A stretch of DNA of 36,450 nucleotides from Candidatus Woesearchaeota archaeon (lineage in GTDB: Archaea; Nanobdellota; Nanobdellia; Woesearchaeales; GW2011-AR9). The notes under the pieces are model-generated. The model worked only from the letters and a program-made list of their open reading frames with translations, searched no databases and was not told the DNA's origin. The position numbers and the translations under genes are program-made. The stretch lies in assembly GCA_018302605.1 (NCBI GenBank), contig JAGVZN010000001.1:1-36450 (forward strand), read 5' to 3'. This document shows positions 4,093 to 33,766 of this stretch, piece by piece; the stretch's first letter is position 1; every line of letters begins with the position of its first letter.

Positions 4093-4151
4093 TTCTTGCT
4101 GACTGCGTCCTGGCTTGCCGGATTACCTTTTGAGAAGTTCGGATAATTCAA

Positions 4152-5621
4152 TTATTGATCTACAAACCTTTCTTTCATATCTTCTTTCATCTCTTCTCTT
4201 TTCACTTTGTTCATCATCTCTTCTCCTTTTTTGTCTCCTTCTCTTTTCACTTCAACTTCTTTCTTCTTCCTTCCCCGCTTTCCTTTCTGTTCTTCCTCTT
4301 CCCGATCCTGCAGGTAGCGTTTCCAGCGGATGAGCGTATAATTTACCGGATTCCTGATCTTCTTGCAGAGGCTATCCGGCCGGCATACACCCAATCCCAA
4401 ATAATACGCTTCGTTATCGCAATTAGGCGGCAATCTCTCCCCCGGCTTGAGATGCTGTAATTGTCCTTTGAGGTACACTTCCCGCAGCGGCGGCTGGTTT
4501 TTCTCCGTATTCCAGGCGTGCAGAAATTCTTCGATCTGTTCTTTATTCCAGCCCAGTTTTCCCAGAAAACCACTCATGCAGAAGATTGCCCGCTTTTTTC
4601 CATCGGCCAGCCCTTGCAGGATCAATTTCATGCAGGGAGGAAAAAAATCTTCTTTGATCGGGCTCTGGATCACTAATTCATCATACTCTCTTTCTTTCTT
4701 CTTCTCTCTGGGCTCTTCAAATTTAACCTGATAATCTAGGGCTTGGACCAGCAGGCGTCTTCCACTTTCTCCTTGTACGTTTTGTTCCAGGAAGCGATAG
4801 TGTGGAACGACTAATTCGGGCTTGGCCATTTCTTTTTCAAATTGCATGACCTGATCTGGGGCGATGGGCAGCGAAACCAAACCTGATTTTTCATGCAAAC
4901 TATAGGGCATCCGATAGAGATGGCGGGACGAAATTAGGATAGTATCGATCTCGAGGAATTTATCAACCTGCAGTTTGCCGACCTTGCTTCCATCTTTCTT
5001 CTGAGTATAACGGATGATCTCTTCTGCGGGGAGATGTACTTTTTCTTTCACGGCACTAAAATCATTATCTTCCATAATCATGATGCGCCGTCCCAATTCA
5101 TCCGCAATATGCTCTTTAACATAATAGGCGATCTTTTTTGCTGCTTCGGGAAACAGCATCTTTGTTGCTATTCCTCCGACTTCTTGTGGAAATGCCTCAA
5201 AAGGCACGCCGATATGGAAACCTTTGTTGCCGCTAAATTTCACCGAAAGATCTTTCACTTCACAATAACGCAGAAACTTCACGATTAAATCAGCGCAGAT
5301 CCGGCTGTATTCAAAAATCTTGCAGTCAATATCGAGAACTAAATCCCAGCCGATGCGCAAATGGTCTAACTCTTTCTTGGGCAGAGTACTGTCTAACGCT
5401 AAAGGGTTTGCCCAGCGTTCCTCACTGGCATGAAACGAAGTGGCATTCTTCAACGCCAGTTCCAAGATTTCCCGGGGATAGGTCAGCGTGTCCGGCCGTT
5501 TGCCGAAACTATCACCGAAGCGCACGCCGATTTCTTTATCCCGGGCATGATCAACAAGCGCATCCTCGATCTCTTTCCGTTTGTAATATTTAAGCAGGAT
5601 GCTTTTGGTCAGAAGAGCCAT
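4152..5621 (-). CDS. priS: Archaeal/eukaryotic-type DNA primase small subunit
   Basis: LRIGWDLVLDIDCKIFEYSRICADLIVKFLRYCEVKDLSVKFSGNKGFHIGVPFEAFP; catalytic VLDID and SGNKGFHI motifs; K/E-rich C-terminal extension. Confidence 0.93.
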   Translation of the reverse strand: MALLTKSILLKYYKRKEIEDALVDHARDKEIGVRFGDSFGKRPDTLTYPREILELALKNATSFHASEERWANPLALDSTLPKKELDHLRIGWDLVLDIDCKIFEYSRICADLIVKFLRYCEVKDLSVKFSGNKGFHIGVPFEAFPQEVGGIATKMLFPEAAKKIAYYVKEHIADELGRRIMIMEDNDFSAVKEKVHLPAEEIIRYTQKKDGSKVGKLQVDKFLEIDTILISSRHLYRMPYSLHEKSGLVSLPIAPDQVMQFEKEMAKPELVVPHYRFLEQNVQGESGRRLLVQALDYQVKFEEPREKKKEREYDELVIQSPIKEDFFPPCMKLILQGLADGKKRAIFCMSGFLGKLGWNKEQIEEFLHAWNTEKNQPPLREVYLKGQLQHLKPGERLPPNCDNEAYYLGLGVCRPDSLCKKIRNPVNYTLIRWKRYLQDREEEEQKGKRGRKKKEVEVKREGDKKGEEMMNKVKREEMKEDMKERFVDQ

Positions 5622-8389: not shown

Positions 8390-8561
8390 GGCTCTGGAGA
8401 AAAAGTCAGCTGCCTGGCCTGAAGTTTGACCGTGGGGAGCGATTTCCAGGAACAGGTGCGAAAACAATCAGCTTAAATGGCTGGTTCTGCTGTCATGAAC
8501 ACGGCCGGTTTTCGCCACGGTCAATGGCCAGGCTGACTTTTTCGAGATTTTCCACAGAGCC
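8390..8561. repeat. Hairpin element, family 2 copy 1
   Basis: Left arm GGCTCTGGAGAAAAAGTCAGCTGCCTGGCC; right arm (RC) GGCTCTGTGGAAAATCTCGAAAAAGTCAGCCTGGCC; inner arms TGACCGTGG/CCACGGTCA and GCGAAAAC/GTTTTCGC. Confidence 0.8.
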
Positions 8562-11155: not shown

Positions 11156-11192
11156 CAGCGGAATGAATGAACTATTTTTATAAACATTTCCC

Positions 11193-11345
11193 CGGCTCTG
11201 TAAAAAATCTCAAAAAAGTCAGCCTGGCCGTTGCCTTCGTGCTTCTCCAGCTACGAGGAGGATAGTTAAGAAGCACCAATAACTTTGGGAGATTACAGTT
11301 CTCAGGCAACTTCTTGGCCAGGCGGCTGACTTTTTTGACAGAACC
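11193..11345. repeat. Hairpin element, family 2 copy 2
   Basis: Left arm GGCTCTGTAAAAAATCTCAAAAAAGTCAGCCTGGCC; right arm (RC) GGTTCTGTCAAAAAAGTCAGCCGCCTGGCC; flanked by 8-bp direct repeats CATTTCCC (11185-11192 and 11346-11353). Confidence 0.8.
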
Positions 11346-11390
11346 CATTTCCCAAAACATTTAACTACTCAAAACTCTTTATCCGAAACG

Positions 11391-12881
11391 ATGGATCGTT
11401 TAGTGCTGCTCATCCTCGACGGCTGGGGCATCAGCCGAAAAAAAGAGGGAAATGCAATCGCTTTAGCCAAAACACCAGTTCTCGATTCCCTTTATCGACA
11501 ATATCCCCATTCTGTCCTCAAAGCATCCGGTGAAGCGGTCGGTCTTCCCAGAGGGATCATGGGCAATTCTGAAGTTGGACATCTCACTCTCGGCACCGGC
11601 CGGATCAACGCTACGGATCTAGTGAGGATTAACAAAGCCATCCAAAACAGATCTTTTTTCAGAAATAAAGTTCTTCTTGCTACAGTCCGCCGCGCCAAAC
11701 GACAACGGCAAAAATTACATCTCATGGGCTTATTAAGCGATGCCGGCGTTCATTCAAACCTCAATCATTTGTTTGCTTTATTGGAATTAGCAAAGAAAGA
11801 AAACGTCAAAGAAGTATATGTTCACGCTTTTCTCGACGGAAGGGATACGCCGCCGCAATCCGCTGAAAAATATCTCAGCCAATTACAGCAGAAAATGAAG
11901 CAGCTTGGCATAGGCCAATTGGCGACGATGATGGGTCGTTTTTATGCCCTTGACCGTGATAATCGCTGGGGCCGTGAACATAAGGCATACAACTGCATGG
12001 TCAACTGCAAAGGGAGAAAAGAATCAGACCCCATCACCGCTTTGCACAAAGCTTATGCCCGCGGCGAAACTGATGAGTTTATCAAGCCGACGATCTTCAC
12101 CAACAAGTGTGTCGTTGACGAAAACGATTCCATCATCTTTTTTAATTTCCGTTCCGATCGCGCCAGGGAATTGACCCGGGCATTTGTCTGGGGAAAATTC
12201 AAAGGGTTTCAGAGGGAAAAAATCATCGGCCTACATTTTGTTTCACTGACTCAATATGATTCACTGGTCAAAGTTCCTGTCGCGTTCCCCCCAATTGCAT
12301 TGAAACAAACTCTTGGCGAAGTGATCTCCCAAGCAGGAATCTCCCAGCTTCGTCTTGCCGAAACAGAAAAATGGGCGCATGTTACCTACTTCTTTAATGG
12401 CTTATGCGAATGTATTTTTCCCCATGAAAAAAGAATTCATGTTCCCAGCCGAAAAGTGACGACCTACGACAAGACTCCGGAAATGAAAGTCAAAGAAATA
12501 ACAGCAGAACTTTTAAGAAATAGCGGCAATCACCAATTCTTCGTCGTGAACTTCGCCAATGCCGACATGGTCGGCCACAGCGGGAATCTACAGAAAACGA
12601 TCAAAGCAGTGGAGGCAGTAGACAGAGCAGTCGGCATCCTCGTCACAAAATTTCCCGGAAAGATACTGATCACCGCGGATCATGGAAATTGCGAAAACAT
12701 GACCAGTGAAATGATCACCAGCCATACCTGCAATCCCGTTCCACTCCTCGGCGTGCGTGTCAACAGGGCGTTAAAAGATGGAGGATTGGCAGATGTTGCA
12801 CCAACAATCTTAGACATCTTGAAATTAAAAAAGCCGAGAGAGATGACCGGAAAAAGCTTGCTGTGTAAATCTTGGCAGTAA
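11391..12881 (+). CDS. gpmI: 2,3-bisphosphoglycerate-independent phosphoglycerate mutase (GpmI type)
   Basis: VLLILDGWGISRKKEGNAIALAKTPVLDSLYRQYPHSVLKASGEAVGLPRGIMGNSEVGHLTLGTGRI; ITADHGNCENM. Confidence 0.97.
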   Translation: MDRLVLLILDGWGISRKKEGNAIALAKTPVLDSLYRQYPHSVLKASGEAVGLPRGIMGNSEVGHLTLGTGRINATDLVRINKAIQNRSFFRNKVLLATVRRAKRQRQKLHLMGLLSDAGVHSNLNHLFALLELAKKENVKEVYVHAFLDGRDTPPQSAEKYLSQLQQKMKQLGIGQLATMMGRFYALDRDNRWGREHKAYNCMVNCKGRKESDPITALHKAYARGETDEFIKPTIFTNKCVVDENDSIIFFNFRSDRARELTRAFVWGKFKGFQREKIIGLHFVSLTQYDSLVKVPVAFPPIALKQTLGEVISQAGISQLRLAETEKWAHVTYFFNGLCECIFPHEKRIHVPSRKVTTYDKTPEMKVKEITAELLRNSGNHQFFVVNFANADMVGHSGNLQKTIKAVEAVDRAVGILVTKFPGKILITADHGNCENMTSEMITSHTCNPVPLLGVRVNRALKDGGLADVAPTILDILKLKKPREMTGKSLLCKSWQ

Positions 12882-14264: not shown

Positions 14265-14397
14265 GTACGTATTAAGTCTGTGCTTGGGCAGGTCGGCCTG
14301 CCTCGTCTCGCTTTGCTTGTTTTCTTGCTTCTTTTGAGAACTGTATGAAGAAATGCGCGAGAAGACCCTGCCCGCACAGACTTAACTTAATACGTAC
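14265..14397. mobile_element. MITE-like element, family 1 copy A (133 bp)
   Basis: TIR GTACGTATTAAG...CTTAATACGTAC; flanked by perfect 8-bp direct repeats GCGGATAG (14257-14264, 14398-14405). Confidence 0.88.
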
Positions 14398-14459: not shown

Positions 14460-15170
14460 ATGAAATTAATTCTGACCAAAAAACCAAAGAACGTTACCAT
14501 CATTGAAGGTTTCCCCGGCTTCGGCTTGATCGGCACGATCGCTACTGAATTTCTCTTAGAACACCTCGATACGGAGAAAATCGGTCTGGTGGAGATGGAA
14601 GAGATTCCTGCAATGATCGCCATCCATCAAAATAAAGTTATTGAACCGATTTCTTTGCATTACAGCAAGAAATATAATCTTGTCCTCGTACATGCGATTA
14701 ACGTCGGGAAAGATATGGCTTGGAAATTAGCCGATGTTGTTCGTGAACTCGCCGAGACCTTAAGTGCTAAAGAAATTCTCTCTTTAGAAGGCGTTGGTTC
14801 CCCGAATCCAGAAGAAGGCGGACGAATCTTTTATTACTCGACCGCAAATGGTGAAGTCAAGAAAAAACTATCTAATATCGCCGCACCACTACAAGAGGGG
14901 ATCATCGTCGGTGTGACGGGCGCATTACTCGCCAGGCATGTGAAGACCCCAATCGTTGCCCTTTTTGCCGAAGCGCGCAGCGGCTTGCCGGACAGCAAAG
15001 CGGCAGCCCATATCATCGAAGCGTTGGATGCCTATGCTGGTTTGGATGTTGATATCAAACCATTGCTCAAACAAGCAGAGGTATTTGAGAAGAAGCTGCG
15101 TGGTTTGATTGACAAAGGGAAGAAAGCAGAGCAAGTAGAAGATGAGAAGCATTTGAGTTATGTGGGATAG
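14460..15170 (+). CDS. PAC2-family (proteasome assembly chaperone-like) protein
   Basis: NVTIIEGFPGFGLIGTIATEFLLEHLDTEKIGLVEMEEIPAMIAIH...LSLEGVGSP. Confidence 0.88.
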   Translation: MKLILTKKPKNVTIIEGFPGFGLIGTIATEFLLEHLDTEKIGLVEMEEIPAMIAIHQNKVIEPISLHYSKKYNLVLVHAINVGKDMAWKLADVVRELAETLSAKEILSLEGVGSPNPEEGGRIFYYSTANGEVKKKLSNIAAPLQEGIIVGVTGALLARHVKTPIVALFAEARSGLPDSKAAAHIIEALDAYAGLDVDIKPLLKQAEVFEKKLRGLIDKGKKAEQVEDEKHLSYVG

Positions 15171-15377: not shown

Positions 15378-16163
15378 TTATTTCTTAACCCGCTCCTGCA
15401 CCGCATCAAATAGTCCTTTCTCCACAATTGGTTGATGCACACCTTTACTACTTTCTCTCGCAAAAGTAACTTCTCCTAAATATGTTCTGTTTTGCAGTAT
15501 CTTCTTGATTCCGTTGACCGAAAACCCCCCCTCTTTGGCAAGCTTATTTAGGCTCATCCCCTGCAGGAATAGGGCATACATTTCTCGTACCTGCTCTGCA
15601 TCTTCTTCTACGACAACTAACTTTTTATCAATCATCTGATACCCAAAAGGTGGCTTTGTCACCGCACCCCCTTCCTTATTCTTTCTAGCCATGCCAAATG
15701 TTGTCCTTTCGCCGATAATGTTTCTTTCAAACTCGGCAAACGCTGAAATAATGTGGAACATCAACTTTCCTGACGCGGAAGCGGTTTCAATCTTATCCTG
15801 TAAAGAGATAAAATCAATATTCCACTCTTTCAGTTTGTCGATAGTAAGAATCAAATCTTTTAAGCTTCTACTAAATCTATCTAACTTATAGGTGAATATA
15901 GCGGAAAACATTTTCTTTTCAGCATCGCTTAAAAGTTCCTGCAGCGCTGGACGATGCTTCATGTCTTTTGCGGACTTGCCTTCGTCTTTATACACCCGAT
16001 GGATAGTATATCCCATCACTCGCGCATAGTTCTTTAATGATTCTTCCTGCGCCGCTAAAGAGAAACCGTGCTGGACTTGATCTTCGGTAGAAACACGCAC
16101 ATACACTGCTGCTTTGGGTATATCTGCTTCATTATTTTGTGCACTTAGGGTCATCGCTTTCAC
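15378..16163 (-). CDS. Serine recombinase (resolvase N-terminal + recombinase domain)
   Basis: AAVYVRVSTEDQVQHGFSLAAQEESLKNYARVMGY...FTYKLDRFSRSLKDLI...AEFERNIIGERTTFGM; short C-terminus (261 aa) without a Cys-rich zinc-ribbon domain. Confidence 0.93.
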   Translation of the reverse strand: MKAMTLSAQNNEADIPKAAVYVRVSTEDQVQHGFSLAAQEESLKNYARVMGYTIHRVYKDEGKSAKDMKHRPALQELLSDAEKKMFSAIFTYKLDRFSRSLKDLILTIDKLKEWNIDFISLQDKIETASASGKLMFHIISAFAEFERNIIGERTTFGMARKNKEGGAVTKPPFGYQMIDKKLVVVEEDAEQVREMYALFLQGMSLNKLAKEGGFSVNGIKKILQNRTYLGEVTFARESSKGVHQPIVEKGLFDAVQERVKK

Positions 16164-16191: not shown

Positions 16192-16426
16192 ATATAAAAT
16201 TTGTGTTTTCGTGGGCGTTTTTGGACGAGAACCTCCCGGAGAGACACTCGCACTTTAATTTTCCATAGTTTCCCGTTTCGTTTGTTCCATAACATATTAT
16301 CTCTGATTGAATATTTTTGTTTCGAAATATTTAATTTTAAATTGAACAATTAAACAATTAAAGTAAATTAGTAATGCTTGTTAACAAAAACATTTAGGAT
16401 AGAATAATTCAATCAAAGTTTAAAAA

Positions 16427-16951
16427 TTATCTTTTAAAAAATTCTGCTACCTTTGCCTCGATGTGTTCTCGGGGAATCAGAAAACAATTACTAATCGAAC
16501 GTGGATATTGTTCACGCTGATGTAAATGTCTGCTAAACTTGGTCAGGAAGAGCGGCCATTCGGTCTGTTCATCGTTGATCTTGCTTTGTGTTCGCCATGC
16601 TTTTCGTACTCTTTCATGGACATCATCGTCATGGACAGTGCGCCAGAGTGGTCGTTGTTCTATCTGACGGACAGATTCCAGAAAATCTTGTACTGCTGGA
16701 AAACGCTGAGAACTCTTGTTCAACGCACGTTTTACAGAGTGAAACATACCATAACATTCCCGCAGGACAAGCTGACTTCCATAGCGCTGGTGAATGTTTT
16801 CCAAATGACGCACATCTACCCCGGCTAGAACCCGTAATTCCCCGCGCGCGTCAGCACACTTTATGCTCTCCATTTCCTGCCGCACTCTGCCCCCTGCATG
16901 GAGAGCGAGATGAATGTCAATTAAAAGTCTCTCATCATATGCCGGCATCAA
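16427..16951 (-). CDS. Hypothetical protein (174 aa)
   Basis: Open reading frame; TTTATAAA box upstream at ~16973; no family recognised. Confidence 0.5.
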   Translation of the reverse strand: MMPAYDERLLIDIHLALHAGGRVRQEMESIKCADARGELRVLAGVDVRHLENIHQRYGSQLVLRECYGMFHSVKRALNKSSQRFPAVQDFLESVRQIEQRPLWRTVHDDDVHERVRKAWRTQSKINDEQTEWPLFLTKFSRHLHQREQYPRSISNCFLIPREHIEAKVAEFFKR

Positions 16952-16994: not shown

Positions 16995-17137
16995 GTACGT
17001 ATTTAGTTTGCCGCTCGCTCGGCGTTCTTCAGCGATTTCTTTGGAAGTGAAAAAGCTATTTTTCTGAATAAAAACGCACCAATCTCGTCTGACGAGAAGA
17101 TTCCCTCGCTCGCTTCTTGGCGAAACTAAATACGTAC
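16995..17137. mobile_element. MITE-like element, family 1 copy B (143 bp)
   Basis: TIR GTACGTATTTAGTTT...AAACTAAATACGTAC; flanked by perfect 8-bp direct repeats TTTTCTAG (16987-16994, 17138-17145). Confidence 0.9.
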
Positions 17138-18806: not shown

Positions 18807-18858
18807 GTACGTATTAAGTTTCGCCAAGATGCGAGTGAGTGGCAAACTTAATACATAC
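18807..18858. mobile_element. MITE-like element, family 1 copy C (52 bp, minimal)
   Basis: GTACGTATTAAGTTT...AAACTTAATACATAC; flanks TTTTCTGG (18799-18806) and TTTTCTGA (18859-18866), 7/8 identical. Confidence 0.82.
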
Positions 18859-21903: not shown

Positions 21904-22050
21904 TGTAACTACCTCCTTTACGTCGTTGATGACGATCAGAAATGATTGGTATTTTAAAGAATGACATTCATATATAAACATTTTGGAATAAGAAACTAGT
22001 GTTTGTTTAGAGAGGTTTGAATAATTCAATTATTGATTTACAAACTTCTC

Positions 22051-22088
22051 TTTAGCTGGCGGTGCGGCTGACTTTTTCTCCAGAGTCC
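22051..22088. repeat. Partial copy of hairpin family 2 end
   Basis: GGCTGACTTTTTCTCCAGAGTCC compared with GCTGACTTTTTCTCCAGAGCC of copy 1; directly upstream of CATTTATATA box. Confidence 0.55.
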
Positions 22089-31412: not shown

Positions 31413-31618
31413 GATAGAATCACTTTGTATTCACCTAATGATTCGATTTCTTGGCTGAGTTTTTTGATATTGATTGGTTGATCATGCTCGACCGTTGTTT
31501 TACCTGTCTTGAAATCAACAAGGCAGGATTTGATGCCTGTAAATTCAGTACAGACCTCTTCGATCAAGAGTTTGCAGGCGTTGCAGTGTGTTCCTTTGAC
31601 CGTAAATGTTGTTTTCAT
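31409..31618 (-). CDS. copZ: CopZ-like heavy-metal-associated domain protein
   Basis: MKTTFTVKGTHCNACKLLIEEVCTEFTGIKSCLVDFKTGKTTVEHD; 4-nt overlap with copA. Confidence 0.9.
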   Translation of the reverse strand: MKTTFTVKGTHCNACKLLIEEVCTEFTGIKSCLVDFKTGKTTVEHDQPINIKKLSQEIESLGEYKVILS

Positions 31619-31678
31619 AAGTGATCATCTCCGGTGTTTTGTGGGTATTTGGACTGCAACATCTTAAATAGATTACGT

Positions 31679-33627: not shown

Positions 33628-33651
33628 AAAGCAAGAATTGAGTATATTCTT

Positions 33652-33766
33652 CTTCGATCAAGATTTTGCAGGTGTTACAGTGTGTTCTTTGGATAGTAAA
33701 CATTGTGTTCATGGTGGTTCATCACCAGTGTTTTGTGAATATTTGGACTGCAACATGTCAAAATAG
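33652..33766 (-). pseudogene. Degraded duplicate of copZ 5' end and leader
   Basis: ~80% match by eye to 31557-31671; minus strand reads MNTMFTIQRTHCNTCKILIEEEYTQF then diverges. Confidence 0.85.

Follow-up and report, generated by a model that had tools for sequence, protein, structure and literature searches.

The hairpin at positions 11194–11345 of the window (the whole stretch of 36,450 nucleotides that was analysed) is, judged by its anatomy, a non-autonomous transposable element (MITE) of the IS5 type. We consider it quite probable that this MITE was moved in trans by an IS5-family transposase, that it inserts upstream of promoters and that its interior is a folded module selected separately from its ends. 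The element, copy 2 of its family in the window, is 152 bp long and lies on the plus strand; R1, a covariance model built from seven close copies, recognised it with a score of 172.5 bits and, for the window, an E-value of 1.7e-42, and its fold has a z-score of -4.5. The sequence-only reading had placed a hairpin with flanking direct repeats at this locus, and both are there: immediately outside the element proper lie 9-bp repeats, CATTTCCCC at 11185–11193 and CATTTCCCA at 11346–11354, which are identical at 8 of 9 positions. The right-hand repeat abuts the BRE/TATA region of gpmI (11355–11367, plus strand), where an A-rich BRE position (AAACA) is followed by a TATA-like TTTAAC. The gpmI gene itself (11391–12881, plus strand; TIGR01307, E 3.4e-195) encodes a 2,3-bisphosphoglycerate-independent phosphoglycerate mutase, and its ATG at 11391 lies ∼30 nt past the expected start of the TATA box. 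The promoter is kept in the sister genome G002 (locus L217; AAAACATTTATCTACTCAAAACTC versus AAAACATTTAACTACTCAAAACTC), in which copy 2 is absent. Directly upstream of the promoter, G002 has different sequence that includes the remains of another element, so that it documents the absence of copy 2 and offers no clean empty site.

The two arms of the hairpin are not equal, as had been noted: in copy 2, ∼10 additional nt (TCTCAAAAAA) sit in arm A, and arm B has a 3-nt bulge and also a second bulge of 5 nt (YTYTT) that the earlier description did not list. Copy 1 (8390–8561, minus strand, 172 bp) scored 80.4 bits with R1 and 98.1 bits with R2, a broader covariance model, and is a mosaic that combines outer arms of the 152-bp type with the interior of a 163-bp subfamily. 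Its long arm resembles that of copy 2, as the sequence-only reading had seen, with agreement at 36 of 40 positions; the further statement that the interiors differ holds for the sequence of the stems, but the architecture is the same in both copies. The core motif recurs in a third element (16995–17137, plus strand), which has unrelated ends (GTACGTATTTAG; GTACGTATTTAGTTT...GAAACTAAATACGTAC) and an 8-bp duplication (TTTTCTAG) and is still recognised by R2 (24.3 bits, E 0.00096). The hairpin at 14265–14397, with GTACGTATTAAG ends and the duplication GCGGATAG, is at most a candidate member of the fold family, with an R2 score of just 10.4 bits; the TATA-like CTTTAAG that it adjoins precedes a gene at 14460 that resembles a proteasome assembly chaperone. 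A degenerate solitary right end (B arm) is present at 22058–22088 on the plus strand (repeat D5).

The window also holds a further hairpin with GTACGTATTAAG ends, a 52-bp remnant at 18807–18858; 8-bp-like duplications accompany it and the hairpin at 14265–14397. An AT-rich hairpin-like repeat with a AATAATTCAATTATTGAT centre occurs at 4128–4175, 16396–16435 and 22006–22053 (repeats D2 and D4), and a 127-bp direct repeat occupies 31542–31668 and 33636–33762 (80% identity, 2.1 kb between the copies). At 15378–16163 on the minus strand there is a short serine recombinase of 261 aa with matches to PF00239 and PF07508, which is probably truncated. The window is marked as archaeal by RNA polymerase subunit D, an archaeal S4 and a primase that matches both the PriS and the PriL types. 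Together with the small genome and its taxonomic neighbourhood, the primase points to a DPANN archaeon, probably one similar to Woesearchaeales.

The element is one of many. The genome to which the window belongs (1.16 Mb in 32 contigs, ∼90% complete) gave 28 matches with blastn, 41 with R1 and 70 with R2, the last of which correspond to ∼63 distinct copies once double matches on both strands are removed. These copies are 152–174 bp long, have no transposase gene and fall into three subfamilies of ∼152 bp, ∼163 bp (with the interior ATTGACCGTGGCGAAAAC) and ∼174 bp (with GGCTTTGTGTAAAA ends). Of 51 genomes in the same family, 20 also had matches to R1, and an order-wide search of 245 genomes, in which the best 11 candidates per genome were scored, found them in at least 7 genomes, a lower bound. 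Scanning for an exact pattern gave no match in the plasmid collection; its single matches in genome contigs (L039, Pseudomonas) and in viral contigs (L040) comprise only the 22 pattern bases with no element around them, and we rejected them as chance. Several hairpin elements (L016–L021, L126 and L127, on contigs C4, C29, C16, C14 and C27 of G000, the genome of the window) are split by a second short element of ∼90–100 bp, in which two hairpins stand side by side (for example, TATAGCAAATGTG...CACATTTGCTAT and then TAGTAATTGTGA...TCACAATTACTATA); on C16 and C29, sequence of the host element is missing where the second element inserted. In G241, which belongs to another family of the same order, L177, L182 and L188 are GGCTCTGTAGAAAG-ended elements with a different long interior stem and without the YTYTT bulge, and at least L182 among them has duplications near TATA boxes.

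The signature of transposition recurs across the copies. Single copies viewed alone suggest a duplication of 8 bp, and alignment of many copies gives 9 bp (TSD). The left and right TSDs were identical at 9/9 positions in 34 of 88 copies and at 8/9 in 22 (together 56/88), while mismatched pairs of left and right flanks, searched in the same way, reached 8/9 or better in 0.9%. Two loci of G000 (L073, C29:8852-9413, and L080, C21:4156-4672) have the identical 9-bp duplication CAATACACC. Short, multicopy and free of a transposase gene, the element thus has terminal inverted repeats, TSDs and autonomous relatives with the same ends, as a MITE does. The sequence-only reading had offered a mobile hairpin as one of two possibilities and would have dropped it had these copies stood alone with irreproducible repeats; the ∼63 copies, the recurring duplications and the ends shared with complete IS5-family elements bear out the mobile element, of which that reading had missed both the position next to promoters and the link to the IS5 family.

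The autonomous relatives are complete IS5-family insertion sequences of 0.9–1.0 kb in genomes of the same family, which match the MITE in their ends (GGCTCTGTAGAAAA), 9-bp TSDs and insertion site. Two of them have perfect duplications: L154 (994 bp, ends GGCTCTGTAGAAAT, TSD CTAAGAACA, 9/9) and L151 (990 bp, ends GGCTCCGTAGAATT/GGCTCTGTAGAAAT, TSD GGAAAAAAC, 9/9). Three others are L153 (934 bp, GGCTCTGTCCAGAA), L145 (887 bp, GGCTCTGTCCTAAA) and L156 (920 bp, GGTCTGTCCAGAAA). The ends of these five IS match variants of the MITE end, and the CTGTCC variants have their counterparts in MITE subfamilies with AGGTCTGTCCAGAA ends and with GGCTCTGTCCTAAG ends. The three IS proteins that were scanned scored below the curated cut-off of NF033579 (IS5-family transposase), yet far above the next family, and above the cut-off of PF01609. 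As a group (NF033579), these IS share terminal repeats (GGCTCTGT...), the 9-bp TSD and the insertion position with the MITE; the MITE differs in having no transposase gene, in its length of ∼140–177 bp and in its interior fold, which is absent from the IS. The IS903 and ISH1 groups of the IS5 family likewise have duplications of 8–9 bp. The IS5 ancestry of the MITE is well supported by sequence comparison. The end sequence had also suggested IS6 and IS1, which we set aside once elements of the IS5 type had proved to share these ends, and ISL3 was ruled out as a source since PF01610 is absent from the genome.

The partner transposon was seen in relatives. The set of genomes that carry the complete IS coincides only partly with the set that carry MITEs, and no PF01609 (IS5-type) transposase was found in the genome of the window or in its sister G002. 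In addition, a scan of the complete IS5-family elements with R2 gave no match, i.e. they do not contain the interior of the hairpin. We infer mobilisation in trans from the relatives, given that neither of these two genomes yielded the transposase and that the IS lack the interior.

The interior has a conserved fold of its own. On the modelled strand, the outer stems P1 and P2 (the terminal repeats) enclose P3 (GGCC), then the 3'-side YTYTT bulge and P4; these are capped by a head that comprises hairpin P5 and the conserved unpaired motifs TTCGTGC...GCACC and GTTCTC. In copy 2, counted from the start of the element, the stems are P1 1–14/139–152, P2 25–31/131–137, P3 32–36/123–127, P4 37–43/111–117 and P5 46–53/76–83, with the 5-nt bulge at 118–122. 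As single strands, the two strands of copy 2 have stability z-scores of -4.5 and -5.0, and none of 200 dinucleotide shuffles was as stable. Among 91 aligned matches, 90.1% of the cells paired compared to 73.8% after shuffling, and the covariation score was 0.382 compared to 0.131 ± 0.005 in shuffled alignments and to at most 0.082 when the structure was slid along the alignment. Both sides had changed in 40 of 41 pairs (0 of 500 shuffles); all these figures lean toward the fold, since the alignment had itself been fitted to the structure. Separate minimum-energy folds of individual copies gave the same architecture. In P5, all eight pairs showed double changes and 92.8% of the cells were paired, and P4 occurs with many pair types. 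The covariation of P1 could arise from both ends serving one transposase, but co-evolution of the terminal repeats does not explain that of P5, since P5 is internal to one half of the element and lies outside the ends. The subfamilies agree in the 5-nt bulge and in the side on which each asymmetry falls, and those with unrelated ends (GTACGTATTAAG in L053, L059 and L104; GGGAAACGCC in L109) retain the core fold without the T-run. Rfam had no gathering-level match in the window, and its best match over 12 loci (E 0.064) was judged to be chance. The other possibility raised by the sequence-only reading, a structured RNA family, thus stands as far as the shared fold and its compensatory base changes (in the structure-fitted alignment) are concerned, and the folded strand may act as an RNA. 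Selection on the single-stranded form, whether RNA or DNA, is the best reading of the fold that the alignments offer.

We then consider where the copies lie. Away from the element, the flank runs through the 9-bp duplication and an A-rich segment to a TATA box. Matches to YTTWWAWA (≤1 mismatch), a pattern picked after looking at the flanks, were counted in the 63 copies with a good duplication. In 57 of 63 copies such a match began 4–7 nt past the TSD on at least one side (A side, 20 copies; B side, 41 copies), while other 4-nt ranges gave 2–10 of 63 copies per side; the distance peaked at +6, with almost all values within 4–8. As the pattern had been chosen post hoc, IS elements across the phylum were examined as an independent check: the +6 spacing was found in most IS5 elements of the same family, and in other families of the phylum, each of the six IS5 elements that had clear 9/9 TSDs showed the TATA box at +6 (one at +7). 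An ORF start was in range on 27 of 35 TATA-bearing sides compared to 12 of 34 other sides, and the start codons mostly lay ∼30 nt past the start of the TATA box, the distance expected for near-leaderless genes. The B side faced the promoter more often than the A side (37 versus 16, p 0.0055). The gap of +6 equals the size of the BRE, so that the insertion abuts the TBP/TFB site from upstream. A preference for sites directly upstream of BRE/TATA is thus well supported by the flanking sequences; we infer recruitment by TBP/TFB, to which direct sequence recognition by the transposase is an alternative, and the site pattern may owe something to purifying selection that removes disruptive insertions.

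Taken together, an IS5-family DDE transposase would recognise the ends of the MITE (GGCTCTGTAGAAAA and its relatives), mobilise it in trans and make the 9-bp duplications. For the insertion to fall directly upstream of BRE/TATA, the transposase would most likely recognise the promoter or the proteins bound to it (TBP/TFB). The interior would be no leftover of an IS but a folded module of its own, made of the GGCC-G stem, the YTYTT bulge and the multi-stem head with UUCGUGC...GCACC and GUUCUC, and would be kept by selection on the single-stranded form, probably RNA from read-through transcription. The copies, their duplications, the ends shared with the IS, the site preference and the covariation can be read directly from the genomes; movement in trans, the recruiting factor and a role as RNA are the steps put forward to account for them. 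A bolder version, which we offer tentatively, is that the IS5 transposons of DPANN archaea dock on the TBP/TFB complex, and that a folded RNA module rides on them across types with unrelated ends, keeping its fold and landing upstream of promoters.

Could the fold be without function, and the element an ordinary IS5 MITE whose covariation comes from ends that track one transposase or from hairpin-templated repair at replication? P1 and part of P2 are indeed terminal repeats that vary with the type of transposon, and long palindromes are prone to templated correction. However, P5 covaries although it is wholly interior, P4 has many pair types, and the unpaired motifs GTTCTC, TTCGTGC and YTYTT are conserved; moreover, copying from arm to arm would erase asymmetric bulges, which persist across subfamilies. 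We therefore regard a functionless fold as rather unlikely. A stronger contender, though still one that we would not favour, is that the hairpin is kept as a two-way transcription terminator or insulator between the upstream gene and the downstream promoter, with insertions that are harmless or useful. The GC-rich stem followed by TTTTT on both strands, the position upstream of promoters and the bias of the B side toward the promoter would all suit such a role. Yet the elements with unrelated GTACGTATTAAG or GGGAAACGCC ends keep the core without a T-run, which disfavours a pure terminator, and a terminator needs neither the multi-stem head nor its conserved loops.

The site pattern, for its part, might reflect survivorship, if insertion were random and only copies upstream of promoters persisted because neutral space is scarce in gene-dense genomes. 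The genome is in fact small and gene-dense, and the copies examined are mostly intergenic, but the distance to the TATA box is sharp where a spread over intergenic space would be expected, and different IS5 elements in other families also sit at +6; survivorship accordingly seems to us improbable, a little more so than the functionless fold. A coding role, as a small translated repeat or as a peptide insert of the kind seen in the Rickettsia palindromic elements, we rejected as extremely unlikely: 26 of 87 copies can be read through in one frame, but no frame is conserved as open, the lengths fall in all three classes modulo 3 and the copies sit upstream of promoters. Transposition by an IS5-family enzyme of a MITE with a selected interior remains the reading that we prefer.

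Known elements resemble this MITE in part. Other prokaryotic MITEs (Correia, QMITE and MITEAba12; SM1–SM4 of Sulfolobus; PMC10969869) are likewise short and non-autonomous, with terminal repeats and TSDs, and reach tens of copies with predicted stem-loop transcripts. They differ from the present family, in which compensatory changes preserve a single fold among genera and among subfamilies whose ends are unrelated, and in which insertion upstream of promoters is precise. The review of prokaryotic MITEs describes archaeal MITEs in few genera, with stem-loop transcripts and effects on promoters, and does not mention DPANN (PMC10969869). REP/REPIN and the Rickettsia palindromic elements are likewise dispersed palindromes with conserved secondary structure; they differ from the element described here, which has IS5-type ends and lies upstream of promoters. 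REPs are moved by RAYT transposases and are not known to have 9-bp TSDs, and the Rickettsia elements are located inside genes. The yeast retrotransposons Ty3 and Tf1 integrate at promoters, Ty3 via the TBP-containing TFIIIB. The parallel is functional and implies no kinship, as these are eukaryotic retroelements and ours is an archaeal DDE DNA transposon with a putative recruiting factor. In the literature we found no account of an archaeal IS at a fixed distance from the TATA box or of MITEs in Woesearchaeota, which is weak evidence of novelty as most subscription journals lay outside the search.

What sets this MITE apart is thus the combination of its site upstream of promoters with a fold conserved across unrelated ends. 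MITEs are normally viewed as passive transposon debris, and compensatory retention of a fold among MITEs with different ends is unusual; as far as the alignments go, it suggests a selected function of the RNA or of the single-stranded DNA. A DNA transposon that keeps a fixed distance to BRE/TATA, if true, would give prokaryotes a parallel to the retrotransposons that target promoters, and its natural insertions may directly mark where promoters lie in uncultured DPANN archaea.
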